This document shows positions 4,535 through 20,323 of a stretch of DNA of 59,830 nucleotides, piece by piece (within the stretch, counting starts at the first letter, position 1; each line of letters opens with the position of its first letter). This DNA is from an uncultured Oscillospiraceae bacterium. GTDB taxonomy: Bacteria; Bacillota; Clostridia; Oscillospirales; Oscillospiraceae. The notes beneath the pieces are model-generated. The model did not search any database. It had not been told where the DNA came from and saw nothing but the letters and a program-made list of their open reading frames with translations. The DNA lies in contig CANQFV010000014.1 of assembly GCA_947599875.1 (NCBI GenBank), forward strand, positions 1 to 59,830, given 5' to 3'. Made by a program: the position numbers and the translations under genes.

Positions 4535-5602
4535 ATGGGAAAAGCGTACTTGATTCTGGAAAACGGCAAGAAATATGAGGGCGTCTCCTTTGGCAAGGCG
4601 GGGACTCATGTGGGGGAGCTTGTTTTTACCACCGGCATGACGGGCTGTGTGGAGAGCCTCACGGATCCCAGCTATTTCGGTCAGCTGGTGATTTTTACGT
4701 TCCCTATGTTTTGTAATTACGGTGTGGCGGACGCGGACATGGAAAGCTCGGACATCCATGTCCGCGGAGCTATAGTCAGGGAGGTTTGTGAGGAACCCAG
4801 CAACTTCCGGTGCGAGGAGACCATCCAGCACTTTATGGAGCGGATGGGCATCGTGGGCATCTCCGGGGTGGACACCCGGGAGCTGACCCAGATGATCCGG
4901 GACGGGGGCGTGATGAACGCCGTCATCACCGACGACCCGGATTACGACTGGCGGGATCTCCACAACTTCCGGGTGGAAGGCTCGGTGGAGGCCACCAGCA
5001 CCCGCGAGCCGGAGGTACTCCTGCCGGAGGGGCCGGTGGGACACACCGTGGTTCTGATGGACTACGGCGCCAAGGGCAGCATCACGGAGAACCTCTTAAA
5101 GCGTGGCTGCAAGGTGGTCATCCTGCCCTACGACTCAAGCTATGAGGAGATCATGGCCTGGAATCCGGACGGCGTTATGCTGTCCAACGGCCCCGGGGAT
5201 CCGGCGGACAACGTGGGCTGCATCGACGTGATCCGCAAGCTTCTGGGGAAGATCCCCATGTTCGGCATCTGCCTGGGGCACCAGATGATGGCCCTGGCCG
5301 CCGGCGGCACCACGGAGAAGCTGAAATTCGGCCACCGCGGGGCCAACCAGCCGGTGAAGGATCTGGAGACAGGCCGGGTCTACATCACCTGCCAGAACCA
5401 CGGCTACGCGGTATCCGTCAAGGACATTGAGCGGGTGGGCGGCAGGATGCGCTTTGTCAACGTGAACGACGGCACCTGCGAGGGCGTGGACTACCCGGAA
5501 AAGAGGGCGTTCTCCATGCAGTTCCACCCGGAGGCCCACGGCGGCCCCAGGGACACGGAGTGGGCCTTTGACAGATTTATCAACATGCTGGAGGTGCGGT
5601 AA
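4535..5602 (+). CDS. carA: Carbamoyl-phosphate synthase small (glutaminase) subunit
   Basis: A 355-aa glutamine-hydrolysing subunit that passes ammonia to CarB for carbamoyl phosphate, feeding pyrimidines and arginine. The N-terminal CPSase_sm domain (AYLILENGKKYEG) is followed by a class I amidotransferase domain with the nucleophile Cys246 in GICLGHQ and the His331/Glu333 pair in FHPEA. The start at 4535 follows GAGGAGG with a 4-nt gap; an upstream in-frame start at 4508 lacks a ribosome site. The stop overlaps the carB start by one base (TAATG), so the two subunits are translationally coupled. Confidence 0.95.
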   Translation: MGKAYLILENGKKYEGVSFGKAGTHVGELVFTTGMTGCVESLTDPSYFGQLVIFTFPMFCNYGVADADMESSDIHVRGAIVREVCEEPSNFRCEETIQHFMERMGIVGISGVDTRELTQMIRDGGVMNAVITDDPDYDWRDLHNFRVEGSVEATSTREPEVLLPEGPVGHTVVLMDYGAKGSITENLLKRGCKVVILPYDSSYEEIMAWNPDGVMLSNGPGDPADNVGCIDVIRKLLGKIPMFGICLGHQMMALAAGGTTEKLKFGHRGANQPVKDLETGRVYITCQNHGYAVSVKDIERVGGRMRFVNVNDGTCEGVDYPEKRAFSMQFHPEAHGGPRDTEWAFDRFINMLEVR

Positions 5603-8600
5603 TGCCTTTAGACAGATCCATTAAAAAAGTGATGGTGATCGGTTCCGGTCCCATCGTCATCGGGCAGGCGGCGGAGTTTGACTACGCCGGCACGCAGGCC
5701 TGCCGCATCCTCCGTTCCGAGGGAGTCAGCTCCGTCCTGGTCAACTCCAACCCCGCCACGGTCATGACCGACGGCGAGATGGCCGACAGCGTGTATTTAG
5801 AGCCGCTGAACGCGGAGACGGTGAAGCGCATCATCCTGAAGGAGAAGCCGGACTGTCTCCTGGCCGGTCTGGGCGGCCAGACGGGCCTCACCATCGCTAT
5901 GCAGCTGACCCACGAGGGCTTTTTGGAGAAGCACGGCGTGCGCCTCATCGGCACAAACGCCGAGGCCATTGACAAGGCGGAGGACCGGGAGCTTTTCAAG
6001 GAGACGATGGAGCAGATCGGCCAGCCCATCATCCCCTCCGACATCGCCAACGACGTGGACACCTGCCTTGCCATCGCCGACCGCATCGGCTATCCCGTCA
6101 TCGTCCGTCCCGCCTTCACCCTGGGCGGCGGCGGGGGCGGCGTGGCCTACAACCCCCAGGAGCTGCGGGAGGTGGCCTTTGTGGGGCTGGAGACCTCCCC
6201 CATCACCCAGGTGCTTATCGAGAAATACATCTTCGGCTGGAAGGAGATCGAGTTTGAGGTCATCCGGGACGGCGCGGGGAACGTGATCACCGTCTGTTCG
6301 ATGGAGAATTTCGACCCCGTGGGCATCCACACCGGCGATTCCATCGTTGTGGCCCCGGCCCTGACGCTGATGGACAAGGAGTACCAGATGCTCCGCTCCG
6401 CCGCCCTGGATATCATCACGGCCCTGGGCATCGAGGGCGGCTGCAACTGCCAGTTTGCCCTGAACCCCGACAGCTTTGAGTACGCGGTCATCGAGGTGAA
6501 CCCCCGTGTGTCCCGCTCCTCCGCCCTGGCCTCCAAGGCCACGGGCTACCCCATCGCCAAGGTGGCGGTGAAGATCGCCCTGGGCTACACCCTGGACGAG
6601 ATCCGCAACGACATCACCGGCAAGACCTATGCCTGCTTTGAACCCACGGTGGACTACTGCGTGGTCAAGTTCCCCAAGTGGCCCTTTGACAAGTTCCACG
6701 GCGCCGGCCGCCGTCTGGGCACCCAGATGAAGGCCACGGGCGAGGTGATGAGCATCGGACAGAATTTTGAGTCCGCCCTCATGAAGGCCGTCCGCGGCGC
6801 GGAGATCGGCCAGTCCACCCTGAACCGCGCCCCGGAGCCGGGAAAAACGCTGGAGGAGCGGCTGGCGGCGATGGACGATCTTCGGATCTTCACCGTGTTC
6901 GAGGCGCTGAAGGCCGGGGTCAGCCCGGAGCATATCCACCAGGTCACCATGATCGACCGGTGGTTCCTCTCCAAGCTCCAGAACCTGGTGAACTTTGAAA
7001 ACACCGTGGCGGAAAAGGGCATTGACGGGGAGACATACCTCCGGGGCAAGCGCTACGGCTACACGGACGCCGCCCTGCGCGCCCTTTCCGGGCAGGAGTG
7101 CATCCCCCACTTGGATCCGGTGTACAAGATGGTGGACACCTGCGCCGCGGAATTTGAGGCGGAGACCCCCTATTACTACTCCGCCTACGACGAGAAGTGC
7201 GACTCCCGGCCTCAGCCCCGGCGGCGCATGAGCGTCATTGTCATCGGCTCCGGCCCCATCCGCATCGGCCAGGGCATCGAGTTTGACTACAGCTCCGTCC
7301 ACTGCGCCGTCACTCTGAAGAAGCTGGGCTACGACGTGGTGATCATCAACAACAACCCGGAGACCGTCTCCACCGACTACGACACCGCGGACAGGCTGTA
7401 CTTTGAGCCTCTGACGCCGGAGGACGTGATGGGCGTCATCAAGGTGGAAAACCCCGTGGGGGTGGTGGTGGCCTTCGGCGGCCAGACGGCCATACGGCTC
7501 ACGGAGTATCTGGACAAGGCAGGCATACGCATCCTGGGCACCAGCGCTGAGGGCATCGACCTGGCGGAGGATCGGGAGCGGTTTGACGCCCTGCTGGAAA
7601 AGATGGAGATCAAGCGCCCCCGCGGCTTCGGCACCCACACCCTGGAGGAGGCCCTGGAGGCCGCCAACACCCTGGGCTACCCGGTTCTCCTCCGCCCCAG
7701 CTACGTCATCGGCGGGCAGAACATGGTCATCGCCCGGGAGGACTCGGACGTGCGCAGCTATATGGCCCTGATCTTTGCCAGCACCGAGCGGGAGGACAAC
7801 TCCGTTCTCGTGGACAAGTACATGCCCGGGACGGAGCTGGAGGTGGACGTGATCTCCGACGGCACGGACGTGCTGATGCCCGGGATCATGGAACACATCG
7901 AGCGGGCCGGCGTCCACTCCGGGGACTCCATCGCCGTCTATCCCCCCTACAACCTGACGGATAAGATGATGGCCCGGGTGGTGGAGTGTTCCACCCGTCT
8001 GGCTCTGGAGCTGGGCACCAGGGGCCTTGTGAATATCCAGTACCTCATCTACAAAAAAGAGCTGTATGTCATCGAGGTGAACCCCCGGGCCAGCCGCACC
8101 GTGCCGTATCTGTCCAAGGTCACCGGCATCCCGATGGTGGACGTGGCGAGCCGCGTCATGATGGGCGCCACGCTCAAGGGCCTGGGCTACGAGCGGGTGC
8201 TGTGTGACACGCCCCCCTATTACGCCGTAAAGGTTCCTGTTTTCTCCTTCGAGAAGATCACCGACGCCAACTCCATGCTGGGGCCGGAGATGAAATCCAC
8301 CGGCGAGGTGCTGGGTCTGGGCCGCACCTTCTCCGAGGCGCTCTTCAAGGGCCTGCGCGCCGCGGGGTACAACCTGTCCGGCGCCTTCACCCCCGGAAAG
8401 AACGGGGTGCTTCTGTCCATCGAGAACCACGAGCTGCCCGAGGTGGTGAAGCTGGCCAAGAAGGTGAACGACCTGCATATGCACCTGTACGCCACGCCGG
8501 ACACCGCCCAGGTCATCGAGTCTCTGGGCCTCCAGGTGACACGCGTCAGCCACGTCCACGACGCCTACTCCCTTATGGACGAGGGGCGGATCAGCTTCAT

Positions 8601-9633
8601 CGTCTACACCGGCGCGCTGTACGACGACACGATGGGCGACTATATCGAGCTGCACGCCAGGGCGGTGCGCCTGCGCATCCCCTGCATCACGAGTCTGGAC
8701 ACCGCCGACGCCGTGGCCGACACGCTGATGAGCCGCTTCACCAACGAGAATACGGAGCTTGTGAACCTGAACGACATGCGCAAGTCCCGGGAGCTGGTGA
8801 GCTTCGCCAAGATGCACACCTGCGGCAGCGACTACATCTTCTTTGACAACCGGGACGGGCGCATCACAAGCCCGGAGTCCCTGAGCGTCACCTTGTGCGA
8901 CCGGGTCACCGGCATCGGCGGTGGGGCGCTTGTCCTCATTGAAAATTCCGCCGGCGCCGACGCCAAGATGCGCATCTTCAACCAGGACGGCACCGAGGGG
9001 CGCATGGCCGCCAACTCCATCCGCTGCGTTGGCAAGTACCTCTATGACAAGGGCATCGTCCGCCATGAGCATATGACCATCCAGACGGACACCGGCATCC
9101 GCTCCCTCCAGCTGTACACCCGCAACGGCCGGGTCAGCACCGTCAGCGTCCACATGGGCACCGCCTTCCTGGACGCCAGGAGGATGCAGGTGAATCTGAT
9201 CGGCAAGTCCCGGGTGGTGGACGAGCCTGTCACCGTGGACGGCCGGGAGTACCGCATCACCCTGTCCACCCTGGGCGTGCCCCACTGCACCGTCTTCACC
9301 CAGGATCTGGGCGGCGAGGACGTGACGGGCAACGGCGCGGCCCTTGTGAATTCCGGGCTTCTCCCCGAGGGGGCGTTTGTGGAGTTTGTGAAGGTGGTCA
9401 ACGACGACACCCTGCGCATCCGGGTCTACGCCCCGGACGAGGGGGAGACCCGGGCCAACGGCACCGCCGCCTGCGCCGCGGTCATCGCCGCCACCGAGCG
9501 CGGCAGCCTGAAAAAGGGCCGGGACATCACCGTAAAGCTCCCCGGCGGCGACGTCACCGTCAACTACTCCGATGAGTTCGTCACCCTCACCGGCGACGCG
9601 GTGATGGTGTTCGAGGGGGTATACGAATATTAA
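5602..9633 (+). CDS. carB: CarB large subunit fused to a catalytically degenerate DapF-like domain
   Basis: 1343 aa against about 1070 for ordinary CarB. Residues 1 to about 1060 form a complete carbamoyl-phosphate synthase large chain: two ATP-grasp halves (SGPIVIGQAAEFDYAG and SGPIRIGQGIEFDYSS), an oligomerisation segment and an MGS-like allosteric domain. From about residue 1064 a full-length diaminopimelate epimerase fold follows (FAKMHTCGSDYIFFD, NQDGTEGRMAANSIRC, GVPHC, DEGETRANGTAAC). Both catalytic cysteines are replaced: Cys of MCGNGIRC is Ala1136, and Cys of ETxACGTG is Asn1286. Substrate-contact Asn of GND, Asn of GNPHC and the ER pair are also changed. I infer an intact CPSase with a non-epimerase, probably structural or ligand-binding, tail. 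There is no frameshift at the junction. Confidence 0.93.
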   Translation: MPLDRSIKKVMVIGSGPIVIGQAAEFDYAGTQACRILRSEGVSSVLVNSNPATVMTDGEMADSVYLEPLNAETVKRIILKEKPDCLLAGLGGQTGLTIAMQLTHEGFLEKHGVRLIGTNAEAIDKAEDRELFKETMEQIGQPIIPSDIANDVDTCLAIADRIGYPVIVRPAFTLGGGGGGVAYNPQELREVAFVGLETSPITQVLIEKYIFGWKEIEFEVIRDGAGNVITVCSMENFDPVGIHTGDSIVVAPALTLMDKEYQMLRSAALDIITALGIEGGCNCQFALNPDSFEYAVIEVNPRVSRSSALASKATGYPIAKVAVKIALGYTLDEIRNDITGKTYACFEPTVDYCVVKFPKWPFDKFHGAGRRLGTQMKATGEVMSIGQNFESALMKAVRGAEIGQSTLNRAPEPGKTLEERLAAMDDLRIFTVFEALKAGVSPEHIHQVTMIDRWFLSKLQNLVNFENTVAEKGIDGETYLRGKRYGYTDAALRALSGQECIPHLDPVYKMVDTCAAEFEAETPYYYSAYDEKCDSRPQPRRRMSVIVIGSGPIRIGQGIEFDYSSVHCAVTLKKLGYDVVIINNNPETVSTDYDTADRLYFEPLTPEDVMGVIKVENPVGVVVAFGGQTAIRLTEYLDKAGIRILGTSAEGIDLAEDRERFDALLEKMEIKRPRGFGTHTLEEALEAANTLGYPVLLRPSYVIGGQNMVIAREDSDVRSYMALIFASTEREDNSVLVDKYMPGTELEVDVISDGTDVLMPGIMEHIERAGVHSGDSIAVYPPYNLTDKMMARVVECSTRLALELGTRGLVNIQYLIYKKELYVIEVNPRASRTVPYLSKVTGIPMVDVASRVMMGATLKGLGYERVLCDTPPYYAVKVPVFSFEKITDANSMLGPEMKSTGEVLGLGRTFSEALFKGLRAAGYNLSGAFTPGKNGVLLSIENHELPEVVKLAKKVNDLHMHLYATPDTAQVIESLGLQVTRVSHVHDAYSLMDEGRISFIVYTGALYDDTMGDYIELHARAVRLRIPCITSLDTADAVADTLMSRFTNENTELVNLNDMRKSRELVSFAKMHTCGSDYIFFDNRDGRITSPESLSVTLCDRVTGIGGGALVLIENSAGADAKMRIFNQDGTEGRMAANSIRCVGKYLYDKGIVRHEHMTIQTDTGIRSLQLYTRNGRVSTVSVHMGTAFLDARRMQVNLIGKSRVVDEPVTVDGREYRITLSTLGVPHCTVFTQDLGGEDVTGNGAALVNSGLLPEGAFVEFVKVVNDDTLRIRVYAPDEGETRANGTAACAAVIAATERGSLKKGRDITVKLPGGDVTVNYSDEFVTLTGDAVMVFEGVYEY

Positions 9634-10249: not shown

Positions 10250-10271
10250 ACAGTATCAGGAGGTGGTTTTT

Positions 10272-10832
10272 TTGAAGGATGAAGAGATCGTGGAGCTTTA
10301 CTGGGCGCGGTCGGAGCAGGCGCTGGCGGAGACGGAGAAGAGCTACGGAAGCTACTGCCGCTCCATCGCCCGGGGACTTCTGCCCCAGGAGGAGGACTGG
10401 GAGGAGTGCGTCAACGACACCTACCTGCGGGCCTGGGAGACCATCCCCCCGCGCCGTCCCGGCAGGCTCTCCACCTATCTGGGGAAGATCACCCGGAACC
10501 TGGCCCTGGACAGGTGTCGGTACGGCGGCCGGGAGAAGCGCGGCGGCGGCCAGGCCCCCCTGGTGTTGGAGGAGATCAGCACGTGCGTCCCCGGGTCGGA
10601 CAGCACCCAGGCGCTTATCGACCGGATGGCGCTGGTGGACTGCTTTGACCGCTTTCTGGCGGCCCTGCCCAGGGAGAGGCGGGACATCTTCGTGCGGCGG
10701 TACTGGTTTTTCAGCTCCGTCAAGGAGATTGCCGCGGATTTCTCCGTCAGCGAGAGCCGGGTCAAGATGATCCTGCTGCGCACGAGGGGCGAATTGAAGG
10801 AGACTTTGGAGAGGGAGGGACTTTGGATATGA
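10272..10832 (+). CDS. Sigma-70 family (ECF-like) RNA polymerase sigma factor
   Basis: A 186-aa sigma factor with region 2 (YLRAWETIPP...STYLGKITRNLALD, about 55-85) and a region 4 helix-turn-helix near the C-terminus (VKEIAADFSVSESRVKMILLRTRGELKE). I chose TTG at 10272 because it is 8 nt from AGGAGG; the GTG at 10263 lies inside that ribosome site. The stop overlaps the next gene's start (ATGA), so the DUF4179 protein is translationally coupled, as is usual for a sigma/anti-sigma pair. An ECF-like promoter is at 10156-10184. The stimulus it senses cannot be told from sequence. Confidence 0.88.
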   Translation: MKDEEIVELYWARSEQALAETEKSYGSYCRSIARGLLPQEEDWEECVNDTYLRAWETIPPRRPGRLSTYLGKITRNLALDRCRYGGREKRGGGQAPLVLEEISTCVPGSDSTQALIDRMALVDCFDRFLAALPRERRDIFVRRYWFFSSVKEIAADFSVSESRVKMILLRTRGELKETLEREGLWI

Positions 10833-11866
10833 CGGAAAAGGAATTTTTATCGGCCTTTGGGGAGATCAGCGAGACGTACATCGAGGCGGCCGCGGCCACC
10901 GTGGGAGGGGCCGGAAAGGCCCCCTCCCGGCGGATCAAAAGCAGGCTCTCCCTGGTGCTGATCGCGGCGGCGGTCTGCCTGCTGCTCATGGGCGCGGCGG
11001 CCGCGGTGGGGGCCATATACGGTGAGGACATCCAGAGCTGGTTTTCCCACCAGTGGGAGCTTGTCACCCGGCGGAACATGAGTGAGGGTCAGCTGGCCGT
11101 CATTGACCACCTGAGCCAGGACATCGGCCAGAGCGCCGCCGTGGACGGCGTGACCGTCACCGTGGACTCCGCCACCGTGGGGGACGGCAGCTTCTACCTC
11201 CTGCTGCGGGCGGAGGGCGTGAAGTTCTCCTCCAGGTACAATTACGGCTTTGGCGACATCCTGATGGAGCTTTCCCCGGATCCCCGGGATGAGGGCGAGA
11301 CCTTTGGCGGATACGGCTTCCAATACCAGGGCCTGGACGGGGACGGCGCCGCCCTCTTCCTCATCAGCTTCAACTACGCCGGATGGGGGGACGCCGGAGG
11401 GGACACAGGCCCCCTCCGGGTGACGCTGACCCTCAGGGATCTGACGCGCAGCCCCGAAAGGCGCACTGTGCTGGCCGGGGAGTGGGCGCTGTCCTTCTCC
11501 ATCGACCGCTCCCATCCCCCTCAGGCCGCCGCCCTGCCGGACACGCCGGTGACGCTGGAGGATCACCGCACTCACACCGGGGTGACCGTCTGGCTCCGGG
11601 ACATCCGGGTGACGAACACCGGTATCCGTTTCCGGTTGGACGACGCCTCCGGCTCCCTCGCCCCCTTCGACGGCCTGCGTCTGATCCTGAAAAGCGGCGC
11701 GGAGGTGGGCAACGACGGCGGCTACGGCGTCCCCCTGGACGGCGCCTTTCTGGAGTGGTCGTACATGTGGCAGTTCCCCGTAGACCTTGACGAGGCGGCG
11801 TATGTCTGCATCGGCGGCAAGCGGCTGCCCCTCCCCTCCGGGGAGCAGCAAGGCCAAAAGCCCTGA
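10829..11866 (+). CDS. Membrane DUF4179-type protein, probable anti-sigma partner
   Basis: 345 aa. A short cytoplasmic N-terminus (MTEKEFLSAFGEISETYIEAA) precedes one transmembrane helix at about residues 40-63 and a long extracytoplasmic region of beta-rich character (VDGVTVTVDSATVGDG..., VTLEDHRTHTGVTVWLRDIRV). This architecture is typical of DUF4179 proteins encoded after ECF-like sigma factors in Clostridia, where the N-terminal tail is thought to bind the sigma factor. The ATG at 10829 overlaps the sigma stop and follows GAGGGAGGG. No zinc-finger HxxxCxxC motif is seen in the N-terminal part. The anti-sigma role is inferred from gene order. Confidence 0.75.
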   Translation: MTEKEFLSAFGEISETYIEAAAATVGGAGKAPSRRIKSRLSLVLIAAAVCLLLMGAAAAVGAIYGEDIQSWFSHQWELVTRRNMSEGQLAVIDHLSQDIGQSAAVDGVTVTVDSATVGDGSFYLLLRAEGVKFSSRYNYGFGDILMELSPDPRDEGETFGGYGFQYQGLDGDGAALFLISFNYAGWGDAGGDTGPLRVTLTLRDLTRSPERRTVLAGEWALSFSIDRSHPPQAAALPDTPVTLEDHRTHTGVTVWLRDIRVTNTGIRFRLDDASGSLAPFDGLRLILKSGAEVGNDGGYGVPLDGAFLEWSYMWQFPVDLDEAAYVCIGGKRLPLPSGEQQGQKP

Positions 11867-11895
11867 AAAACCGTATCTTTGTGCAACTTGCCATC

Positions 11896-11924
11896 TTGTC
11901 TTTTGGATAATGAAGTGCTATGAT
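11896..11924 (+). promoter_or_regulatory. Promoter of the aromatic amino acid operon
   Basis: TTGTCT at 11896-11901, 17-nt spacer, TATGAT at 11919-11924. The predicted start near 11931 gives a leader of about 200 nt before aroF, containing the leader peptide and attenuator. Confidence 0.65.
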
Positions 11925-11955
11925 ATGTCCAACGCAATGCCCGCGAGGTGCAAAG

Positions 11956-12030
11956 ATGAACGCTACCCCCCTCAAAGACAACTATTTCGGCTATTATTTC
12001 AGCTTTACCTTCTTTTTTGGTAAGGTTTGA
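11956..12030 (+). CDS. Phe/Tyr-rich leader peptide of the aro operon
   Basis: A 24-codon reading frame with GAGGTG ribosome site (11945-11950) five bases before the ATG. Residues 10-21 read YFGYYFSFTFFF: nine of twelve are aromatic (six Phe and three Tyr in the whole peptide). It lies between a promoter and an intrinsic terminator, upstream of genes that make phenylalanine and tyrosine. This is the textbook arrangement for ribosome-mediated transcription attenuation. The stop codon (12028-12030) is three bases before a segment that can pair with the terminator arm. A ribosome finishing the peptide would cover that segment; one stalled for lack of charged Phe or Tyr tRNA would leave it free. 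Confidence 0.85.
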   Translation: MNATPLKDNYFGYYFSFTFFFGKV

Positions 12031-12033
12031 TGG

Positions 12034-12109
12034 GTTTGGCTGGAATAGGTTGACGGGCAGATCAAAAAACGCCTCAATTCCCACAGCCAAACGGCTGTGG
12101 GAATTTTTT
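12034..12109 (+). promoter_or_regulatory. Attenuator: antiterminator and intrinsic terminator before aroF
   Basis: Terminator: a perfect 13-bp stem, AATTCCCACAGCC (12076-12088) with GGCTGTGGGAATT (12093-12105), loop AAAC, then a T-run to 12109. Antiterminator: GTTTGGCTG (12034-12042) plus GAAT (12043-12046) can pair with CAGCCAAAC (12084-12092) and ATTC (12077-12080), leaving a 3-nt bulge. The two structures exclude each other because both use 12077-12092. With the leader peptide just upstream, this gives a simple aromatic-amino-acid sensing switch. The pairing was found by eye; no folding energies were computed. Confidence 0.82.
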
Positions 12110-12134
12110 CGGGCATGAACGGAGGAAATTTCTT

Positions 12135-13145
12135 ATGATCGTCATCTTAAAAGAGAACCCCAACAAGACCCAGGTGGACTCCCTTGTGGCCTGGCTGGAG
12201 AGCAAGGGCATCGAGATCCACACCTCTGTGGGCGAGCATCAGACCGTCATGGGCCTGGTGGGGGATACGTCCCAGCTGGACATGGATCTGCTGCTGGCCC
12301 TGGACATCGTGGAGGATGTGAAGCGCATCCAGGAGCCGTATAAAAACGCGAACCGCAAGTTCCACCCCAACGACACCGTCATCCAGGTGGGGGACACCAA
12401 GATCGGCGGGGGGAATCTCACCCTCATCGCCGGCCCCTGCTCGGTGGAGAATGAGGAACAGATCGTGGCCGTGGCCAAGGCCGTGAAGGCCTCCGGCGCC
12501 ACGCTGCTCCGGGGCGGCGCCTTCAAGCCCCGCACCTCCCCCTACTCCTTCCAGGGCCTGCACGAGGAGGGGATCCGCCTTCTCAAGCTGGCCAAGGAGG
12601 TGACGGGCCTGCCCATCGTCACGGAGCTTATGGACGCCAGTCACCTGCCCATGTTCAAGGACGTGGACATCATCCAGGTGGGCGCCCGGAATATGCAGAA
12701 CTTTGAGCTTTTAAAGCTCCTGGGCCGCCAGGAAAAGCCCATCCTCCTAAAGCGGGGCCTGGCCAACACCTACGAGGAGCTTTTGATGTCCGCCGAGTAC
12801 ATCATGGCCGGCGGCAACCAGAACGTGATCCTCTGCGAGCGGGGGATCCGCACCTTTGAGACGTACACCCGCAACACCCTGGACATCAGCGCCATCCCCG
12901 TTCTGAAAAAGCTCTCCCACCTGCCGGTGATCATCGACCCCAGCCACTCCGCCGGGAAGTGGGAGCTGGTGGAGCCCCTCTCCTGCGCCGCCGTGGCCGC
13001 CGGGGCCGACGGGCTGATCATCGAGGTCCACAACGACCCCGCCCACGCGCTGTGCGACGGCCCCCAGTCCCTGAAGCCCTCGGTCTTTGACCACCTGGCG
13101 GACAGGCTCCGGGCCATCCACGCCGTGGTAGCTGAGAGCCTGTAA
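12135..13145 (+). CDS. aroF: 3-deoxy-7-phosphoheptulonate (DAHP) synthase, class I-beta
   Basis: 336 aa. It condenses phosphoenolpyruvate and erythrose 4-phosphate, the first step of the shikimate pathway. The N-terminal about 70 residues form a ferredoxin-like regulatory domain (MIVILKENPNKTQVDSLVAWLE). The catalytic barrel follows with AGPCSVENEEQ, LRGGAFKPRTSPYSFQG, KRGLANTYEE and IDPSHSAGK. Start at ATG 12135 after GGAGG. It is the first gene of the aromatic operon, under leader-peptide attenuation. A terminator-like hairpin that overlaps its stop codon, part of an A-B-C-D repeat, separates it from tyrA, so aroF may be expressed more strongly than the downstream genes. Confidence 0.95.
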   Translation: MIVILKENPNKTQVDSLVAWLESKGIEIHTSVGEHQTVMGLVGDTSQLDMDLLLALDIVEDVKRIQEPYKNANRKFHPNDTVIQVGDTKIGGGNLTLIAGPCSVENEEQIVAVAKAVKASGATLLRGGAFKPRTSPYSFQGLHEEGIRLLKLAKEVTGLPIVTELMDASHLPMFKDVDIIQVGARNMQNFELLKLLGRQEKPILLKRGLANTYEELLMSAEYIMAGGNQNVILCERGIRTFETYTRNTLDISAIPVLKKLSHLPVIIDPSHSAGKWELVEPLSCAAVAAGADGLIIEVHNDPAHALCDGPQSLKPSVFDHLADRLRAIHAVVAESL

Positions 13146-13316
13146 AAAAGGCCGCAGGCCTTTTTTACAAGGGGACGCGTGCGGGAAATTTTTCTGAATT
13201 TTGCGAAATTCAGAAAAATTTCCCTGCCGCCGCCCTGCGCGCCCGGCCCGGAGGGCCGTACACTGGGGCGGCATAAGGGATTTTTTGCAAGGCGCACGTC
13301 CTTGCAAAAAATATTT
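13142..13316 (+). repeat. Solo A-B-C-D hairpin element between aroF and tyrA
   Basis: Hairpin A (GTAAAAAAGGCC/GGCCTTTTTTAC, 13142-13168) overlaps the aroF stop codon and looks like an intrinsic terminator. The ACGCGTGCGG spacer precedes hairpin B, with GAATTT-TGCG-AAATTC apex and AAATTTTTCT arms. Hairpin C has a GGCCCGGAGGGCC inner stem. Hairpin D is GCAAGG/CCTTGC flanked by T6 and A6. Flanks match other copies; arms do not. Confidence 0.75.
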
Positions 13317-13362
13317 AAGTTTAAGTTGTAAGATTCGTAATTTGAGATAAGGAAGATTGATT

Positions 13363-14202
13363 ATGTCAACCATCGGCATTGTGGGCCTTGGCCTTATCGG
13401 CGGTTCTATGGCCAAGGCGGTGAAATTTCACACCGATCACACCGTCTACGGCGCGGATCTGGACAGCGGCACGATGGCCCTGGCCTTCGCCTCCGGCGCC
13501 ATTGACAACGTGCTGGACGGGACAAGCATGGGCGCCTGCGACCTGATCCTGGCGGCCCTGCCCCCCCGGGCGCTTGTGGAGTGGGCCGGGGAGAACGCCC
13601 CCCGCATCCCCCCCTCCGCCGTTTTGGTGGATCTGTGCGGCGTGAAGCGGGTCATCGTCCAGGCCATCCGTCCCCTGGCCCGGAAATACGGCTTCTCCTA
13701 TGTGGGGGGACACCCTATGGCGGGGAAGGAACACGGGGGGTTTAAAAACTCCACCGCGCTGCTGTTCTCCGGGGCGTCCATGATCCTCACCCCCGACGGG
13801 GACACCGGCGCCCCCCTTTTGGAGCGGCTCCGGCGCTTCTTCCTCTCCCTGGGCTTCGGGGGGATCACCTACTCCACGCCGGAGGAGCATGACCGGATCA
13901 TCTCCTACACCTCCCAGCTTTGCCACATCACCTCATCGGCGTTTGTCAAGTCCCCCACGGCCCAGACCCAGATGGGCTTCTCCGCCGGCTCCTTCCGGGA
14001 TATGACCCGGGTGGCGTATCTGGACGAGAACATGTGGACGCAGCTCTTTCTGGCGGACGCGGACTTCCTCACCGGGGAGCTGGACACCCTCATCGGCCAT
14101 CTGACGGAGTACCGGGACGCCATAAAAGCCGGGGACGAAGGGCAGCTTCGGGAGCTTCTCCGCCAGGGGCGGGAGCTGAAAACAACGGCGGGAGGCACAT
14201 AA
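13363..14202 (+). CDS. tyrA: Prephenate dehydrogenase
   Basis: 279 aa. It oxidatively decarboxylates prephenate to 4-hydroxyphenylpyruvate, the tyrosine precursor, using NAD(P). The N-terminal Rossmann motif GIVGLGLIGGSMAKA and the GGHPMAGKEHGGF active-site segment (near residue 125) are clear. There is no C-terminal ACT domain, so direct tyrosine feedback is less likely than in longer TyrA forms. The ATG at 13363 is preferred to TTG 13357, which is too close to the AAGGA site. The stop overlaps the aroB start (TAATG). Confidence 0.93.
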   Translation: MSTIGIVGLGLIGGSMAKAVKFHTDHTVYGADLDSGTMALAFASGAIDNVLDGTSMGACDLILAALPPRALVEWAGENAPRIPPSAVLVDLCGVKRVIVQAIRPLARKYGFSYVGGHPMAGKEHGGFKNSTALLFSGASMILTPDGDTGAPLLERLRRFFLSLGFGGITYSTPEEHDRIISYTSQLCHITSSAFVKSPTAQTQMGFSAGSFRDMTRVAYLDENMWTQLFLADADFLTGELDTLIGHLTEYRDAIKAGDEGQLRELLRQGRELKTTAGGT

Positions 14203-15284
14203 TGGACAGTAAGACCTTACACGTTGACGCCGGAAACGGCTATGATATTCTGATCTCCCCCGGCATCCTGGACGGCGCCGGGGCGCGTATTCGCGCCGCC
14301 CTTCCCGCGGCGCGGCGGCTTTTTGTGGTGACGGACTCCAACGTCTCCCCCCTGTACGGCCCGCGGCTTGTGGCCTCTCTGGAGAAGGAGAGCTTTCAGG
14401 TACACACCCATGTGATCCCCGCCGGGGAGTCCTCCAAATGCGCCTCGCGCCTTGTGGAGCTTTGGACGTGGATGACCTCCCTTGGCATCACCCGCTCCGA
14501 CGCGGTGGTGGCCCTGGGCGGCGGCGTGGTGGGGGACCTGGCGGGATTTGCCGCCTCCACTGTCCTGCGGGGCGTGGGGCTTGTGCAGATCCCCACCACC
14601 CTGTTAAGCCAGGTGGACTCCTCCGTGGGGGGCAAGACGGCGGTGGATCTGGACACCGGCAAGAACCTGGCCGGCACCTTCTACCAGCCGGATCTTGTCC
14701 TCATGGACCCGGAGGTGCTGGACAGCCTCCCGGACACGGACTTTATGTCCGGCATGGCGGAGGTGGTGAAGTACGGGTGCATCTGGGACGCGGACTTCTT
14801 TGATTTCCTGGCCGCCCGCCCTGACAGGCGCTCCCTTATGGGGGACATCGGCCACATCCTCTACACCTGCTGTGACATCAAGCGCCAGGTGGTGAACGCC
14901 GACGAGCATGACACCGGCCTTCGGATGATCCTGAACTTCGGCCACACCCTGGGCCACGCCTACGAGCTGGCCGGGAATTACACCGTCTGGACTCACGGCC
15001 AGGCCGTGGCCGCCGGGATGGTGGCCGCCGCCCGCCTGGGCGTGGCCCTCTCGGTGACGCAGGCGGACGTGCCGGAGCGGATCCGGGGCGTCCTGGCCCC
15101 TCTGGGCCTGCCCACGTCTATCAGCGCGGCCCCGGAGCATGTGCGCCGGGCCGTGGGCGTGGACAAAAAGAGCGCCGGGGACTTTGTGACGCTCATTCTC
15201 CTGGAGAAGATCGGCGCTGTGCGGCCCGTGAAGCTGCCCCGGGATCAGGTCACGGAGCTTCTGGCCGGGCTGGACGGGAGGTAA
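14202..15284 (+). CDS. aroB: 3-dehydroquinate synthase
   Basis: 360 aa. It cyclises DAHP to 3-dehydroquinate with NAD and a divalent metal. Visible landmarks are ALGGGVVGDLAGFAAS (NAD-binding glycine segment), the PTTLLSQVDSSVGGKTAVD motif, and metal-binding regions FGHTLGHAYE and THGQAVAAGM. The length is normal. ATG 14202 overlaps the tyrA stop and follows GGAGG. The aroA start is two bases past its stop, so tyrA-aroB-aroA are tightly coupled. Confidence 0.95.
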   Translation: MDSKTLHVDAGNGYDILISPGILDGAGARIRAALPAARRLFVVTDSNVSPLYGPRLVASLEKESFQVHTHVIPAGESSKCASRLVELWTWMTSLGITRSDAVVALGGGVVGDLAGFAASTVLRGVGLVQIPTTLLSQVDSSVGGKTAVDLDTGKNLAGTFYQPDLVLMDPEVLDSLPDTDFMSGMAEVVKYGCIWDADFFDFLAARPDRRSLMGDIGHILYTCCDIKRQVVNADEHDTGLRMILNFGHTLGHAYELAGNYTVWTHGQAVAAGMVAAARLGVALSVTQADVPERIRGVLAPLGLPTSISAAPEHVRRAVGVDKKSAGDFVTLILLEKIGAVRPVKLPRDQVTELLAGLDGR

Positions 15285-15286
15285 GC

Positions 15287-16453
15287 ATGGATATTCAGAT
15301 CACCCCCTCCCCCCTCTCCGGCGCCGTCACCCCTCCCCCCTCCAAATCCCTGTCCCACCGGGCGCTGATCGCGGCGTACCTGGCCCGCTCGGCGGACAGG
15401 ATCGCCCATCTGGCCTCCTCCCAGGACATCGAGGCCACAAGGCGCTGTATGGAGGCCCTGCTCACCGTGTCCGACGGCTTTCCCGTGCTGGACTGCGGGG
15501 AGTCCGGCTCCACCCTGCGGTTTTTGATCCCCCTGGCCCTGGTTCTGCGCGGCGGGGGAAAATTCACCGGCCGCGGCCGCCTGATGGAGCGGCCCCAGGA
15601 GCCGTATTTCGCCATTTTCCGCGCAAAAGGCATCCACTTTGAGCTGTCCGGCGGCGTGCTGTCCGTATCCGGGGCGCTGAGGGCGGGGGAATTCTCCCTC
15701 CCCGGGGACGTGTCCAGCCAGTTTGTCACCGGCCTTCTCTACGCCCTGCCCCTCCTTCCGGGGGACTCCGCCGTCAGCATCACCTCCCCGCTGGAGAGCC
15801 GCTCCTACGTCTCCATGACCCAGGAGGTGCTGCGCTCCTACGGCGTCCTGGTGGAGAACCGGGATTTTCAGCGGTTTATCATCCCCGGGGGGCAGAAGTA
15901 CCTGCCCTGCGACTACACGGTGGAGTCCGACTGGTCACAGGCGGCCTTCTGGTACGCCGCCCGGAATTTGGGTCACCCGGTGGAAATAACCGGCCCGGAC
16001 CCGGACTCCCCCCAGGGGGACAGGGCCGTGGCCCGGCTCGCCTGTACCCTCGCCGGGGACGGGGATGTGGAGATCGACCTTGCCCAGATCCCCGACCTTC
16101 TGCCGCCCCTGGCGGCGATGGCCGGCGCAAGGCGGGGCGTCACCCGCTTTACAGGCGCCGCCCGCCTGCGGATGAAGGAGTCCGACCGCATCGAGACCAC
16201 CGCCCGTATGCTCCGCGCCTTCGGCGTGGAATGTGACACCGGCCCGGACTTCCTCACCGTCCGGGGCGGCAATAGCCTGCGCTCCTGCGCCGTGGACGGC
16301 GCGGGGGACCACCGCATCGTCATGGCCGCCGCCATCCTGGCCTCCGGGGCCGATGGCCCGGTGACCATCCGCGGCGCGGAGGCTGTGGAAAAATCCTACC
16401 CCGGATTTTTTGACGACTATAAAAAGCTGGGAGGGATCGCGGATGTCCTCTGA
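15287..16453 (+). CDS. aroA: 3-phosphoshikimate 1-carboxyvinyltransferase (EPSP synthase)
   Basis: 388 aa, slightly shorter than the usual about 430. It joins PEP and shikimate 3-phosphate. The N-terminal PSKSLSHRALIAAYLA, CGESGSTLRFLIPL and C-terminal GDHRIVMAAAILASG motifs with KESDRIE are all present, so the two-domain inside-out barrel appears complete. The start is two bases after the aroB stop with GGGAGG just upstream. The last 11 bases overlap aroC. CGESGSTLRF resembles the class II type enzymes common in Firmicutes, but glyphosate class cannot be settled by eye. Confidence 0.94.
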   Translation: MDIQITPSPLSGAVTPPPSKSLSHRALIAAYLARSADRIAHLASSQDIEATRRCMEALLTVSDGFPVLDCGESGSTLRFLIPLALVLRGGGKFTGRGRLMERPQEPYFAIFRAKGIHFELSGGVLSVSGALRAGEFSLPGDVSSQFVTGLLYALPLLPGDSAVSITSPLESRSYVSMTQEVLRSYGVLVENRDFQRFIIPGGQKYLPCDYTVESDWSQAAFWYAARNLGHPVEITGPDPDSPQGDRAVARLACTLAGDGDVEIDLAQIPDLLPPLAAMAGARRGVTRFTGAARLRMKESDRIETTARMLRAFGVECDTGPDFLTVRGGNSLRSCAVDGAGDHRIVMAAAILASGADGPVTIRGAEAVEKSYPGFFDDYKKLGGIADVL

Positions 16454-17537
16454 AATCGGAAAAGCCCTGAAGATCTCCGTCTTCGGCCAGTCCCACGGCA
16501 GGAGCATCGGCGTGGTCATGGACGGCCTGCCCGCCGGCATCCCCCTGGACGAGGAGCGGCTCAACGCCTTCCTGGCCCGCCGGAGGCCGGGAGGCTCGAA
16601 GCTGGCCACTCAGCGGCACGAGGACGACCGCCCGGTGTTCCTCTCCGGCATTGTCAACGGCGTCACCGCCGGGTCCCCCCTGTGCGCCGTCATTGAGAAT
16701 ACGGACACCCGCAGCGGCGATTACGCCGCCCTCACCGACCTGCCCCGCCCCTCCCACGCGGACTTCACCGCCAGGGCGCGGTACGGGGAGGCCGTGGATA
16801 TGCGCGGCTCCGGCCACTTCTCCGGCCGCCTCACCGCCCCGCTGTGCGTGGCCGGGGGCATCGCCGCCCAGGTGCTGGAGCGGTACGGCGTGGCCGTGGG
16901 CGCCCACCTGCTCCGGGTGGGAGACGCCGTGGATGTTCCCTTCCCTCTCCTGCCGGATCCGGCGCTGTTCGCCGCCGTGGCCGCCAAGGAGATCCCGGTG
17001 GTGGACGACGCCGCCGGGGAGCGGATGCGCCGGGAGATCGAGGCCGCCAGGGCCGATGCCGACAGCGTGGGCGGGATCGTGGAGTGCGCCGCCGTGGGGC
17101 TGCCCGCGGGCGTCGGCTCCCCCATGTTTGACGGGATAGAAAACCGGCTGGCGGCGGCGCTTTTCGGCGTCCCCGCCGTAAAGGGTGTGGAGTTCGGCGC
17201 CGGCTTTGCCGCCGGGCAGATGCGCGGCAGCCGCCACAACGACCCCTTCGTCACGGAAAACGGCCGGATCCGCACGGAGAAGAACGACGCCGGCGGCATT
17301 CTGGGCGGCATCACCACGGGGATGCCCGTGGTGGTCAGATGCGCCATGAAGCCCACCCCGTCCATCGGAATCCCTCAGCGGACGGTGCGCCTCTCCACCA
17401 TGCGGGAGGAGACACTGGAGATCCGCGGCCGCCACGACCCCTGCGTGGCCCTCCGGGCCGTCCCCGTTATCGAGGCCGTCACGGCCTTCACCATCTTAGA
17501 CATACTAATGGAGGAAAAAGGATATGGAAATGACTGA
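16443..17537 (+). CDS. aroC: Chorismate synthase
   Basis: 364 aa, normal length. It eliminates phosphate from EPSP to give chorismate, using reduced FMN. The N-terminal signature FGQSHGRSIGVVMDGLPAG, RRPGGSKLATQRHEDD, and the C-terminal SRHNDPF and GGILGGITTGMP motifs identify it. The start at 16443 lies inside the end of aroA behind GGGAGGG. Its stop overlaps the start of pheA by 14 bases. Together with aroF, aroB, aroQ, aroE-aroK and aroA this completes the seven-step route to chorismate in one locus. Confidence 0.95.
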   Translation: MSSEIGKALKISVFGQSHGRSIGVVMDGLPAGIPLDEERLNAFLARRRPGGSKLATQRHEDDRPVFLSGIVNGVTAGSPLCAVIENTDTRSGDYAALTDLPRPSHADFTARARYGEAVDMRGSGHFSGRLTAPLCVAGGIAAQVLERYGVAVGAHLLRVGDAVDVPFPLLPDPALFAAVAAKEIPVVDDAAGERMRREIEAARADADSVGGIVECAAVGLPAGVGSPMFDGIENRLAAALFGVPAVKGVEFGAGFAAGQMRGSRHNDPFVTENGRIRTEKNDAGGILGGITTGMPVVVRCAMKPTPSIGIPQRTVRLSTMREETLEIRGRHDPCVALRAVPVIEAVTAFTILDILMEEKGYGND

Positions 17538-18666
17538 GATCCGCCGGAAGATCGATACAATCGACGATCAGATGCTCCGGCTCTTTCTGGAGCGCATGGA
17601 GCTTTCCCAGTCCATCGCCCAGGTGAAGGCCCGGGACAACCTGCCCATTTTGAACCGGGAGCGGGAGCGGGAGATCCTGAGGAACGTGTCGGAAAAGTCC
17701 GGGGAATATGACCTCTACTCCCACCGGCTCTTTTCCACCATCCTGGAGCTGAGCCGCACATACCAGCGGGGCACCCTGAAAACCGGCTCCGCGGTGCGGG
17801 ACTTCATCGCCGGCTCCTTGCAGGATGTGCCGGAGCTTTTCCCGGAGGGCGGGCTTATCGCCTGCCAGGGCGTGGAGGGGGCCTACAGCCAGATGGCCGC
17901 CGACCGCATGTTCCCCCGGGGGAATATCGTGTACGTCAAGACCTTTGAGGCCGTCTTTGACGCGGTGCAAAGCGGCCTGTGCCAGTTCGGCATCGTCCCC
18001 ATTGAAAACAGCTCCAACGGCTCGGTGCGCCAGGTCTACGACCTGCTCCAGGTGAAGGACGTGAGCATTGTCCGCTCGGAGCGGCTGTGCATCTCCCACG
18101 AGCTTCTGGTCAAGCCCGGGGTGAAGCTCCAGGATGTCCGGAAGATCGTCTCCCACGAGCAGGCCCTGGGCCAGTGCAGCCGGTTCCTCAAGTCCCTGGG
18201 GGACAAGGTGGAGATCGAGAAGATGGACAACACCGCCGTGGCCGCCAAGTATGTGGCCCAGTGCGATGATCCCGGTGTCGCGGCCCTGTCCAGCTCCAAC
18301 TGCGCGGAGCTTTATGGGCTGGAGTCTTTAAAGTGCGGCCGGATCCAGAACTCCGACAACAACTACACCCGGTTTATCTGCATCGCCAAAAAGCCCGTTG
18401 TCTACCCCGGGGCCAACCGGATCACCCTGGTCCTCTCCTGCGAGCATCGCCCCGGCGCCCTGTACGACGTGCTGAGCCACATCTCCGCCCTGGAGCTGAA
18501 CCTGATCAAGCTGGAGTCCTGCCCCATGATCGGCCACGACTTTGAGTTTTTGTTCTTCTTTGAGATCGAGGCCAGCGTCCGGGATCCCAAGGTGGTGGAC
18601 ATGCTGGAGAGTCTGGAACACTCCTGCCGCTCCATGCGGTATCTGGGCAATTATCAGGAGATCTGA
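17524..18666 (+). CDS. pheA: Bifunctional chorismate mutase / prephenate dehydratase (P-protein)
   Basis: 380 aa. An N-terminal AroQ-type chorismate mutase (MTEIRRKIDTIDDQMLRLFL, about 1-85) leads into prephenate dehydratase (QGVEGAYSQMAADRMF, VPIENSSNGSVRQVYDLL, NNYTRFICIAKK) and a C-terminal ACT regulatory domain (HRPGALYDVLSHISALELN). It converts chorismate through prephenate to phenylpyruvate. The ACT domain normally carries an ESRP motif for phenylalanine binding; here it reads ESCP at 331-334 (Arg to Cys), so feedback inhibition may be altered. It is translationally coupled to aroC and three bases before aroE-aroK. Confidence 0.95.
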   Translation: MEMTEIRRKIDTIDDQMLRLFLERMELSQSIAQVKARDNLPILNREREREILRNVSEKSGEYDLYSHRLFSTILELSRTYQRGTLKTGSAVRDFIAGSLQDVPELFPEGGLIACQGVEGAYSQMAADRMFPRGNIVYVKTFEAVFDAVQSGLCQFGIVPIENSSNGSVRQVYDLLQVKDVSIVRSERLCISHELLVKPGVKLQDVRKIVSHEQALGQCSRFLKSLGDKVEIEKMDNTAVAAKYVAQCDDPGVAALSSSNCAELYGLESLKCGRIQNSDNNYTRFICIAKKPVVYPGANRITLVLSCEHRPGALYDVLSHISALELNLIKLESCPMIGHDFEFLFFFEIEASVRDPKVVDMLESLEHSCRSMRYLGNYQEI

Positions 18667-18669
18667 GCC

Positions 18670-19914
18670 ATGCGCAGGATATACGGACTGATCGGGGAGA
18701 AGCTGGGCCACAGCTACTCGCCGGAGATCCACGCCGCCCTGGGCTGCCGGGACTACAGGCTCTATGAGCTTGCCCCCGGCGAGCTTGAGTCCTTCCTCCG
18801 CTCCCCCGCTCTGGGGGCGGTGAACGTCACCATCCCCTACAAGCGGGAGGTGTTCCGCTTCTGCGACGTGGTGGAGGAGGCCGCCGGGGAGATCGGCGCC
18901 ATCAACACCGTGGTGAACCGGGGCGGCAGGTTGTGGGGCTACAACACGGACAGACTGGGCTTCACCTGCGCCGTAAACAGGGCCGGACTTGACTTCCGGG
19001 ACAAGAAGGTGGTGATCCTCGGTTCCGGGGGCACCTCCCACACAGCCACGGCGGCGGCAAAGGCCCTGGGCGCCCGGGAGATCGTCATCGTCTCCCGCTC
19101 CGGGGAGAACAACTATGATAATCTCTCCCGCCACGCTGACGCCGGGATCCTGGTGAACACCACGCCCGTGGGGATGTACCCCAACTGCCCCGCCTGCCCG
19201 GTGGATCTGGACCTCTTCCCCCACCTTACGGGGGTCATGGACGTGGTGTACAACCCCCTGCGCACCGGCCTTTTGATGGAGGCGGAGAAACGGGGCATCC
19301 CCCACGCCGGGGGCCTCGCCATGCTGGTGGCCCAGGCCAAGGCGGCGGAGGAGCTGTTTTTCGGTAAGAAGCTGGACGACGCCCTTGTGGAGAAGATCAC
19401 CGCCCGTCTCGGCCGCCGGGCGGAGAATATCGTCCTCATCGGGATGCCCGGCAGCGGCAAGACCACCGTGGGCAAATTCACGGCGGCCCGCTCCGGACGG
19501 GAGCTGGTGGACGTGGACAAGCTCATCACCGCCCGCACGGGCCTGCGCCCCGGGGACATCATCACCCGGGACGGGGAGGAGGCCTTCCGCCGGCTGGAGA
19601 CGCAGATTCTCTCGGAGGTGTGCCGCACCGGCGGCCGGATCATCACCACCGGCGGCGGCTGCGTCACCCGGGAGGAGAACTACCCCCTCCTCCACCAGTC
19701 CGGCCGGATCTACCGCATCGACCGGGAGCTGTCCCAGCTGTCCACCCGCGGCCGGCCCCTGTCCGCCGGGGGGATAAAGGGGCTGGAGCGGCTGTTTGAG
19801 ACCCGGGATCCCCTGTACCGGCGCTTTGCCGACGTCACCGTGAAAAATGACGGCACGCTGGACGAGGCGGCCGATAAGATCTGGAGGGATTTTTGTGAAA
19901 ATACTCGTTATTAA
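18670..19914 (+). CDS. aroE-aroK: Shikimate dehydrogenase - shikimate kinase fusion
   Basis: A 414-aa fusion of two consecutive pathway enzymes. Residues 1 to about 250 are AroE: GEKLGHSYSPEIHAAL substrate motif, NVTIPYKRE with the catalytic Lys, AINTVVN, NTDRLGF, and the NADP loop LGSGGTSHTA. Residues about 255-414 are AroK, with Walker A GMPGSGKTT at 258-266, the DVDKLI acidic motif, TTGGGCV and RGRPL. It reduces 3-dehydroshikimate and then phosphorylates shikimate, perhaps with product transfer between domains. No frameshift or stop separates the halves. Its 3' end overlaps aroQ by 20 bases. Confidence 0.94.
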   Translation: MRRIYGLIGEKLGHSYSPEIHAALGCRDYRLYELAPGELESFLRSPALGAVNVTIPYKREVFRFCDVVEEAAGEIGAINTVVNRGGRLWGYNTDRLGFTCAVNRAGLDFRDKKVVILGSGGTSHTATAAAKALGAREIVIVSRSGENNYDNLSRHADAGILVNTTPVGMYPNCPACPVDLDLFPHLTGVMDVVYNPLRTGLLMEAEKRGIPHAGGLAMLVAQAKAAEELFFGKKLDDALVEKITARLGRRAENIVLIGMPGSGKTTVGKFTAARSGRELVDVDKLITARTGLRPGDIITRDGEEAFRRLETQILSEVCRTGGRIITTGGGCVTREENYPLLHQSGRIYRIDRELSQLSTRGRPLSAGGIKGLERLFETRDPLYRRFADVTVKNDGTLDEAADKIWRDFCENTRY

Positions 19915-20323
19915 CGGCCCCAACCTGAACATGCTGGGCATACGGGAGCCGGACATCTACGGCAAGGGCACCTACGCCGACCTTGTGGCCCTCATCTCCG
20001 CCGAGGCGGAAAAGCTTGGGGTGGAGGTGGAGTTTTTCCAGTCCAACCACGAGGGGGCTCTGGTGGACGCCATCCAGGGGGCCTTTTCCCGGGTGGACGG
20101 CATCATCATCAACCCCGGCGCCTACACCCACACCTCCGTGGCTCTCCTGGACGCGGTGAAGGCCGTGGGGATCCCCACGGTGGAGGTCCACATCTCCGAC
20201 CCGGACACCCGGGAGCCCTTCCGAAAGGTCAGCTACATCCGGGCTGCCTGCGTCAGGACTGTAAAGGGCCAGGGCTTTGCGGGGTATCTCACCGCCCTGC
20301 GCTTTCTGGCCCTGGGGGCGTGA
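19895..20323 (+). CDS. aroQ: Type II 3-dehydroquinate dehydratase
   Basis: 142 aa, the normal size of the dodecameric type II enzyme that dehydrates 3-dehydroquinate. The signature ILVINGPNLNMLGIREPDIYG, FFQSNHEGALVDAI, IINPGAYTHTSVAL and VEVHISDPDTREPFR are complete, with Tyr and His active-site residues in place. The start is GTG 19895 after CTGGAGGG, inside the end of aroE-aroK. It is the last gene of the aromatic operon and is followed by a strong terminator. Confidence 0.94.
   Translation: MKILVINGPNLNMLGIREPDIYGKGTYADLVALISAEAEKLGVEVEFFQSNHEGALVDAIQGAFSRVDGIIINPGAYTHTSVALLDAVKAVGIPTVEVHISDPDTREPFRKVSYIRAACVRTVKGQGFAGYLTALRFLALGA

Follow-up and report, generated by a model that had tools for sequence, protein, structure and literature searches.

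A predicted leader-peptide attenuator for phenylalanine and tyrosine ahead of aroF in an uncultured Oscillospiraceae bacterium and its relatives

The region ahead of aroF in an uncultured Oscillospiraceae bacterium very probably carries a ribosome-mediated transcription attenuator of the trp/phe type, which would sense charged tRNA-Phe together with tRNA-Tyr and set read-through into aroF and probably into the genes behind it. The analysis concerns a 59,830-nucleotide stretch of DNA (the window, to which all positions refer) and the corresponding regions of related genomes. Computation covered the reading frame, how far it is conserved, its bias in codons, the competing pairings and their co-evolution, and the outcome predicted when the ribosome stands at each position; that the frame is translated, that ribosomes stall within it and that read-through changes as a result is what these properties suggest. 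A leader-peptide attenuator had been proposed here in an earlier, sequence-only reading, and this core of the proposal stands, with three of its accompanying points corrected; it is backed by the codons of the frame, by its conservation, by co-evolution of the antiterminator and by a predicted stall/stop switch. The kind of element is already known, and no published description was found of this attenuator family, or of any Phe/Tyr leader attenuator in this order, in a search of mainly open-access literature.

Architecture of the aroF leader

Between positions 11896 and 12134 a promoter-like site, a Shine-Dalgarno site, a 24-codon frame, its stop codon and a terminator follow one another in order, all on the forward strand. 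The promoter (11896-11924) is of the sigma-70 type, with TTGTCT and TATGAT spaced by 17 nucleotides and TG ahead of the -10 hexamer (one found by the scan, 0.3 expected), and similar hexamers are present in the genus clade. Lying upstream of and over the -35 hexamer is a conserved DNA block, TTTGTGCAANNTGCCANNTTGTCTTTTGG (11878-11906), found in 19 of 19 genus-clade sequences, the first 16 bases of which are absent from all 111 of the other aroF upstream regions; this 29-bp block may be an operator for a second regulator acting at the level of DNA. The leader frame (11956-12030) is preceded by the Shine-Dalgarno sequence GAGGTG (11945-11950), begins with ATG at 11956, encodes MNATPLKDNYFGYYFSFTFFFGKV and ends with TGA at 12028-12030, which is followed by TGG and then by GTTTGGCTGGAAT from 12034. 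Codons 10-21 (11983-12018) form the regulatory cluster, with nine of the twelve specifying Tyr or Phe.

Folding places the 5' strand of an enclosing helix (11938-11946, partner 12050-12059) by the leader Shine-Dalgarno site, and pairs region 1 (11982-11993) with 12037-12048 in a 12-bp protector helix over Tyr/Phe codons, which in the naked fold of the window joins codons 9-13 to region 2. The loop of an in-frame hairpin, P1 (11999-12030, with 11999-12009 paired to 12019-12030), contains the last three Phe codons. Region 2 (12034-12048) overlaps the partner of region 1 and contributes the 5' strand of the antiterminator, in which 12034-12042 forms nine pairs with region 3 (12084-12092), a helix that is longer in the nascent fold. 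Region 3 is itself inside the intrinsic terminator element (12076-12109), a 13-bp stem (12076-12088 with 12093-12105) that has the loop AAAC (12089-12092) and runs into a T run. This terminator was missed by a simple terminator scan (none found in 11500-12500), probably because the T run overlaps the stem.

The layout described in the sequence-only reading, from promoter and GAGGTG site to the 13-bp terminator and its alternative pairing, was confirmed by the sequence, the folds and the shuffles. In the 300 nucleotides upstream of aroF, with the same scoring applied to window and shuffles, the richest run of 12 codons has 9 Phe/Tyr, and the maximum in 3000 dinucleotide shuffles is 6. The fold-energy calculation suggested along with that reading also came out in its favor, the leader fold being more stable than those of shuffled sequences (z = -4.63; none of 200 shuffles as good). 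Of the properties that define ribosome-mediated attenuators, those found here are a short, Shine-Dalgarno-preceded frame rich in codons for the end products of the operon, an intrinsic terminator ahead of the first structural gene, and a conserved antiterminator that is mutually exclusive with the terminator (absent or weak in families f2, f9, f19, f23 and f25); a deciding role of ribosome position is predicted by fold simulation.

The leader would work as follows. A ribosome would translate the 24-codon frame as RNA polymerase moves along the leader. With Phe or Tyr scarce, the ribosome would stall in codons 10-21, open the 1:2 protector and free region 2, which would then pair (12034-12042) with region 3 (12084-12092), so that no terminator forms and aroF is transcribed. 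With both amino acids plentiful, the ribosome would reach the stop codon, three bases 5' of region 2, and cover region 2; region 3 would pair with region 4 and transcription would stop in the T run that follows 12105. For untranslated window RNA, the 1:2 helix and the terminator are predicted. It had been suggested that no separate pause hairpin is needed, but the window fold contains both the 12-bp 1:2 helix and an in-frame hairpin, as in classical attenuators.

Conservation in the genus clade

Across 19 genus-clade sequences, 90.6% of the cells in the whole structure are paired, against 31-52% in slid versions, and the covariation score is 0.210 compared with 0.156 after shuffling, with two of the five whole-structure measures lying within the column shuffles (both-side changes, reached by 93 of 500, and further pair types, by 458 of 500). 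In the same 19 sequences the terminator is paired in 98.4% of cells, with six pairs changed on both sides, the protector helix in 91.1%, with one both-side change, and the enclosing helix in 88.8%, with none. P1 is paired in 94.7%, nine of its 11 pairs being invariant and one change affecting both sides; a small 5' helix (11947-11951 with 11962-11967) is paired in only 63.2%. The antiterminator is paired in 98.8% of cells in the clade, compared with 11-49% when slid. Its pairs change on one side only, none on both, and for this reason column shuffles are uninformative for this helix.

The peptide itself might be thought to matter. A nascent-peptide arrest comparable to that of TnaC, in which the peptide FSFTYFFGKA stalls the ribosome in response to free Phe or Tyr and not to uncharged tRNA, would account for an FSFT-FFGKA-like core that is common to many pattern-bearing and genus loci. 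However, several aromatic positions swap Phe and Tyr within the genus clade, and some hold Thr, Ser, Cys or Arg. The core is fixed as nucleotides where it is paired: the GGT AAG codons are invariant in the clade, as are TTT ACC except in the frame-shifted locus L019, which has left the frame at the GKA end and nevertheless retains the nucleotides. The GKA core is missing from several other families, and codon make-up tends to track the downstream gene. The Phe/Tyr swaps beside fixed paired codons, together with L019, favor codon sensing combined with constraint on the RNA, and arrest by the peptide is improbable, although it fares better than the other alternatives weighed below.

Not all leaders share the window's placement of the stop codon. 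Two loci of its own clade (L002 and L003), like the majority of pattern-bearing loci outside the clade, have a frame that continues through region 2 (..GKAYFGLAE..); in such leaders, it would have to be a ribosome still translating, and not one paused at a stop, that covers region 2.

Occurrence ahead of aroF across the order

Homologues of aroF were located in 48 of 60 relatives and in 136 of 217 genomes of the order, Oscillospirales. From the listed matches 130 upstream regions were collected (30 + 20 + 80 loci), a subset skewed toward better-scoring matches and including some near-copies, such as L025 and L028, which have a core in common. An ATG-initiated, Shine-Dalgarno-preceded frame of 12-45 amino acids with at least six Phe/Tyr per 12 codons is present in 91 of the 130, and in five of 2600 shuffled controls (0.19%). 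With 19 other residue pairs as a control, 18 give between 0 and 5 regions of 130, and Ile/Phe, which shares Phe, gives 34. Under looser start-codon and Shine-Dalgarno rules 103 regions reach six Phe/Tyr, leaving 27 of 130 without such a leader. In a further 60 aroF upstream regions, hand-picked from a phylum-wide match list (two, from G060 and G448, come from the window's own family or class), six have a frame with at least six Phe/Tyr, two of these without a Shine-Dalgarno-like match. Judged by these sequence patterns, the predicted attenuator is a typical feature of the order, with a scattered presence elsewhere.

The order to which the window belongs is rich in gut bacteria, and codon-sensing attenuation is usually taught as a proteobacterial device. 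By this survey, such attenuation would stand at the entry to the aromatic amino-acid pathway across the order.

Antiterminator co-evolution and ribosome position

Co-evolution of the antiterminator was evaluated in the 97 leaders, from 19 families, that have a detected terminator; L004 and L030, where the terminator finder missed the terminator, are absent from both the duplex and the simulation sets. The duplex that each leader forms with its own arm averages -17.7 kcal/mol, whereas arms taken from other families give -12.9 and shuffled strands -11.9, and at the level of families the differences are significant (Wilcoxon p 3e-4 for swapped arms and 2e-6 for shuffled strands). Two families with one leader each, f9 and f2, do worse than swapped arms, and f19, f23 and f25 show little gain. 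Peptides of the f23 leaders (L191, L265, L267 and L276 among them) are like RFTSFGYPRYFMAWDF, with Trp beside Phe/Tyr, and have little antiterminator signal. An alignment with relatives had been proposed as a check on the sequence-only reading, and the reading came through it, with the Phe/Tyr frame present in most of the aroF upstream regions of the order and the antiterminator co-evolving over families.

In folding simulations of the window, the cluster's nine aromatic codons fall into two groups: with a ribosome footprint at one of the first seven, nascent region 2 pairs with the terminator arm, and with a footprint at one of the last two, or at the stop, it does not. Taking as a switch at least six antiterminator pairs at some aromatic-codon stall but not at the stop, 17 of 18 genus-clade leaders are predicted to switch, as are 10 of the 11 near relatives and 42 of the 68 leaders from other families; 23 of those 68 are predicted to keep the antiterminator even when the ribosome is at the stop. 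In the ribosome-free state the antiterminator is predicted for 8 of the 18 genus-clade leaders, 9 of the 11 near relatives and 35 of the 68 others. Because naked RNA is so often predicted to form the antiterminator, the protector helix, which wins in only some relatives, cannot be taken as general, and the basal state is left in doubt. Basal termination enforced by the 1:2 protector had been entertained as a general rule and was dropped after these simulations.

Conservation of region 2 and P1 as nucleotides, even out of frame, could also be read as the mark of a translation-independent RNA switch, that is, a riboswitch or a site for an RNA-binding protein on the conserved GGTTTGGCTGAA strand, with the frame incidental. 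There would be room for an undescribed class of this sort, since no Rfam family matched at gathering threshold; the leader models of Rfam 15 gave no match at that threshold in the whole window, and none up to E 5 in 11850-12180. Against it, the Phe/Tyr content of the Shine-Dalgarno-preceded frame is specific and far above chance, and region 2 varies in sequence from family to family, although the ability to pair with the terminator is largely preserved. Such a switch is judged a shade less probable even than an arrest peptide.

A T-box riboswitch for Phe or Tyr is highly improbable at this site. T-box matches do occur elsewhere in the genome, and a T-box-like motif, sought by regular expression, precedes aroF in 2 of the 130 regions of the order and 7 of the 60 from the phylum. 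The T-box covariance model (RF00230), however, has no match in the window at gathering threshold and none up to E 5 in 11850-12180, and the reading was rejected for lack of a match at the leader. Seven T-box matches were found in the genome, two of them over the gathering score, with none at aroF and none of the seven on this contig. The genes behind them are pheS and trpE (both tested), one that was not recognised, and others that we take, from sequence, to be valS, leuA, thrS and cysE. The pheS and trpE matches fall below the gathering score yet have a T-box-like antiterminator motif; pheS starts about 490 nucleotides beyond its match, and trpE is just under the cut-off of its best model. 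One genome would appear to combine a leader attenuator at aroF with T-box matches near pheS and trpE. A small frame arising by chance ahead of a constitutive terminator is equally remote, being contradicted by conservation, codon statistics and co-evolution.

Relation to known attenuators

In the enterobacterial trp, pheA, pheST and his leaders, a short frame is combined with a 1:2 protector, a 2:3 antiterminator and a 3:4 terminator. The window element resembles these in having a frame rich in end-product codons, the same three helices and stall-dependent read-through, the helices and the read-through being predicted here. It differs from them in reading two amino acids in one frame, in having an in-frame hairpin with Phe codons in its loop and in matching no Rfam family, and, in many relatives, in a frame that reads through region 2.

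The sequence-only reading considered such control unusual for Firmicutes, which no longer fits, as the predicted attenuator occurs widely in this order and leader attenuators for His and Leu have been published for other Firmicutes. Attenuators of the His leader type with terminator and antiterminator are described for Firmicutes in two reports (PMC2965389, PMC9413887); they share leader-peptide attenuation with the window but have His codons, precede his/hisS-type genes and occur in other lineages. For the Staphylococcus aureus ilv-leu operon, an experimentally supported, Leu-rich attenuator peptide is reported (PMC5794164), again leader-peptide attenuation in a Firmicute, with Leu codons and an ilv-leu operon instead. 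The uORFC-13-1 motif is a putative upstream frame with at least one Phe codon and a terminator ahead of aroF, for which attenuation was proposed and which is reported for Acholeplasma and unassigned environmental sequences only, with 24 representatives (PMC8632094); both elements combine a putative Phe frame with a terminator ahead of aroF, in a comparison made by description only. The Leu/phe leader of Lactococcus lactis (RF01743) is, by its name, a Firmicute amino-acid leader that includes Phe (PMC2864571); it has no match in the window, and the likeness is one of name only. In the Bacillus cereus group, tyrosine synthesis is reported to be under T-box control (PMC2494555), with the same coupling of the pathway to tRNA charging and a T-box in place of translation of a leader frame.

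The operon and its surroundings

The first gene predicted to be regulated is aroF, for DAHP synthase (12135-13145; Pfam DAHP_synth_1 and DAHP_snth_FXD, NF006421 over cut-off). It is followed, by Pfam assignment and likewise on the forward strand, by tyrA, prephenate dehydrogenase (13357-14202); aroB, 3-dehydroquinate synthase (14172-15284); aroA, EPSP synthase (15287-16453); aroC, chorismate synthase (16443-17537, with ATG at 16443 from the reading-frame list and the Pfam run from 16446); pheA, with chorismate mutase, prephenate dehydratase and a weak ACT match (17524-18666); an aroE-aroK fusion of shikimate dehydrogenase and shikimate kinase (18670-19914); and aroQ, type II dehydroquinase (19847-20323 as the frame is listed, the start probably being further in).

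Control of the whole operon, as claimed in the sequence-only reading, needs qualification, since 211 nucleotides with palindromes, one of them terminator-like (13280-13312), separate aroF from tyrA. The scan for terminator-like sites found seven, against 6.6 in shuffles. The gap holds a palindrome-rich repeat (13140-13312), core copies of which occur elsewhere in the window at 26439-26468 and 49068-49097, both on the reverse strand. In 27 other loci where both genes were placed, the spacing ranges from overlap to 220 nucleotides and is at most 22 nucleotides in 19. For the window's genome, read-through as far as the distal genes is presumed. A similar repeat was seen by eye in the aroF-tyrA gap of L004.

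Directly upstream of the attenuator and on the same strand is a pair of genes (10263-11866), the first of the sigma-70 family (ECF-like) and the second encoding a protein with a DUF4179 match just under cut-off. Farther upstream, a 1343-amino-acid frame (5602-9633) joins carbamoyl-phosphate synthase large chain and diaminopimelate epimerase domains, as assigned by Pfam.

Copies ahead of other genes

A covariance model of the core, R1, was built on an alignment of 40 sequences (A3). This derives from a MAFFT alignment (A1) of 43, chosen for diversity from the 86 unique leaders with a detected terminator (of 93), with the short-loop leaders L061, L068 and L091, which were misaligned, left out. 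R1 covers only part of the leaders seen in the survey, and matched 18 of 150 genomes of the family, 53 of 394 of the order (E 0.01) and, counting the genome of the window itself, 7 of 398 of the phylum. Searches in the orders of genomes G776 and G778 both fell on a single genome sample and gave coordinates that the order-wide search had already yielded. Three of the 19 matches inspected (L388, L389 and L390; E 0.0085-0.0097) are not leaders, L382 stops at a contig end, and for L373 the reading frame chosen was out of frame. A separate pattern scan listed 80 loci of at least 118 stretches. Eighty-four pattern-bearing loci were tested, of which 80 lie ahead of aroF, two ahead of pheA and two ahead of neither. 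No query gene lies downstream of the matches in Marinobacter (L062) and Bifidobacterium (L088), and both were treated as chance.

Leaders were also found ahead of tyrA (L380, L387 and L355) and, at L365, the core precedes aroB (over cut-off). At L370 and L371 Phe-only leaders with terminator-like hairpins precede phenylacetate-CoA ligase genes, which start about 190 and 390 nucleotides beyond the core and have PaaK as best NCBIfam model, below its cut-off. In L366 (genome G727) the core precedes a TrpB-like PLP enzyme, over the cut-off of that family and below that of trpB proper; its leader, FYWFWFSF, has two Trp codons in an otherwise Phe-type element.

The share of Phe among Phe and Tyr is 1.00 in both paaK leaders, 1.00 and 0.62 for pheA, 0.22, 0.44 and 0.62 for tyrA, 0.60 for aroB and 0.83, plus the two Trp, for the TrpB-like gene; aroF leaders average 0.61, and 100 of 103 have both residues. 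The difference between Phe genes and Tyr genes gives a permutation p of 2e-4 with all three tyrA leaders included, in a test of seven leaders picked after the leaders had been seen. The tyrA leader L355 and the pheA leader L136 resemble aroF leaders. On this comparison, copies ahead of other genes would tend to carry matching codons, Phe only for paaK and rich in Tyr for two of the three tyrA genes.

These copies invite a broader reading, for and against which the chances seem about even: that the element is an old attenuator platform of the order, used at the entry to aromatic synthesis, where other Firmicutes have T-boxes. Copies would since have reached further aromatic genes and, in a patchy way, other classes and Synergistota-labelled genomes, with the sensing codons re-specified for each gene: both Phe and Tyr at aroF, Phe at pheA and paaK, Tyr at tyrA, and some Trp at the TrpB-like gene. 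If so, the leaders would be a natural set with swapped codons, material for testing how specificity evolves, and leader codons would give a cue to the role of nearby genes. The Phe-only leaders ahead of paaK suggest a role for these genes in Phe synthesis; under the platform reading, paaK would serve synthesis of Phe from phenylacetate and not breakdown.

Pattern matches carry the labels Oscillibacter, Dysosmobacter and other Oscillospiraceae, as well as Fretibacterium and Synergistes; the cultivable Oscillibacter valericigenes is among them. Fretibacterium belongs to the Synergistota, and the core was found in 3 of 59 genomes of the family of the Fretibacterium-labelled genome. The Synergistota-labelled copies look like transfer, with mis-binned metagenome contigs as the alternative. 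At L289 (genome G514), two tandem leader-plus-terminator units, with starts 171 nucleotides apart, precede aroF; the first leader has one Tyr, and the second is rich in Phe and has no Tyr.
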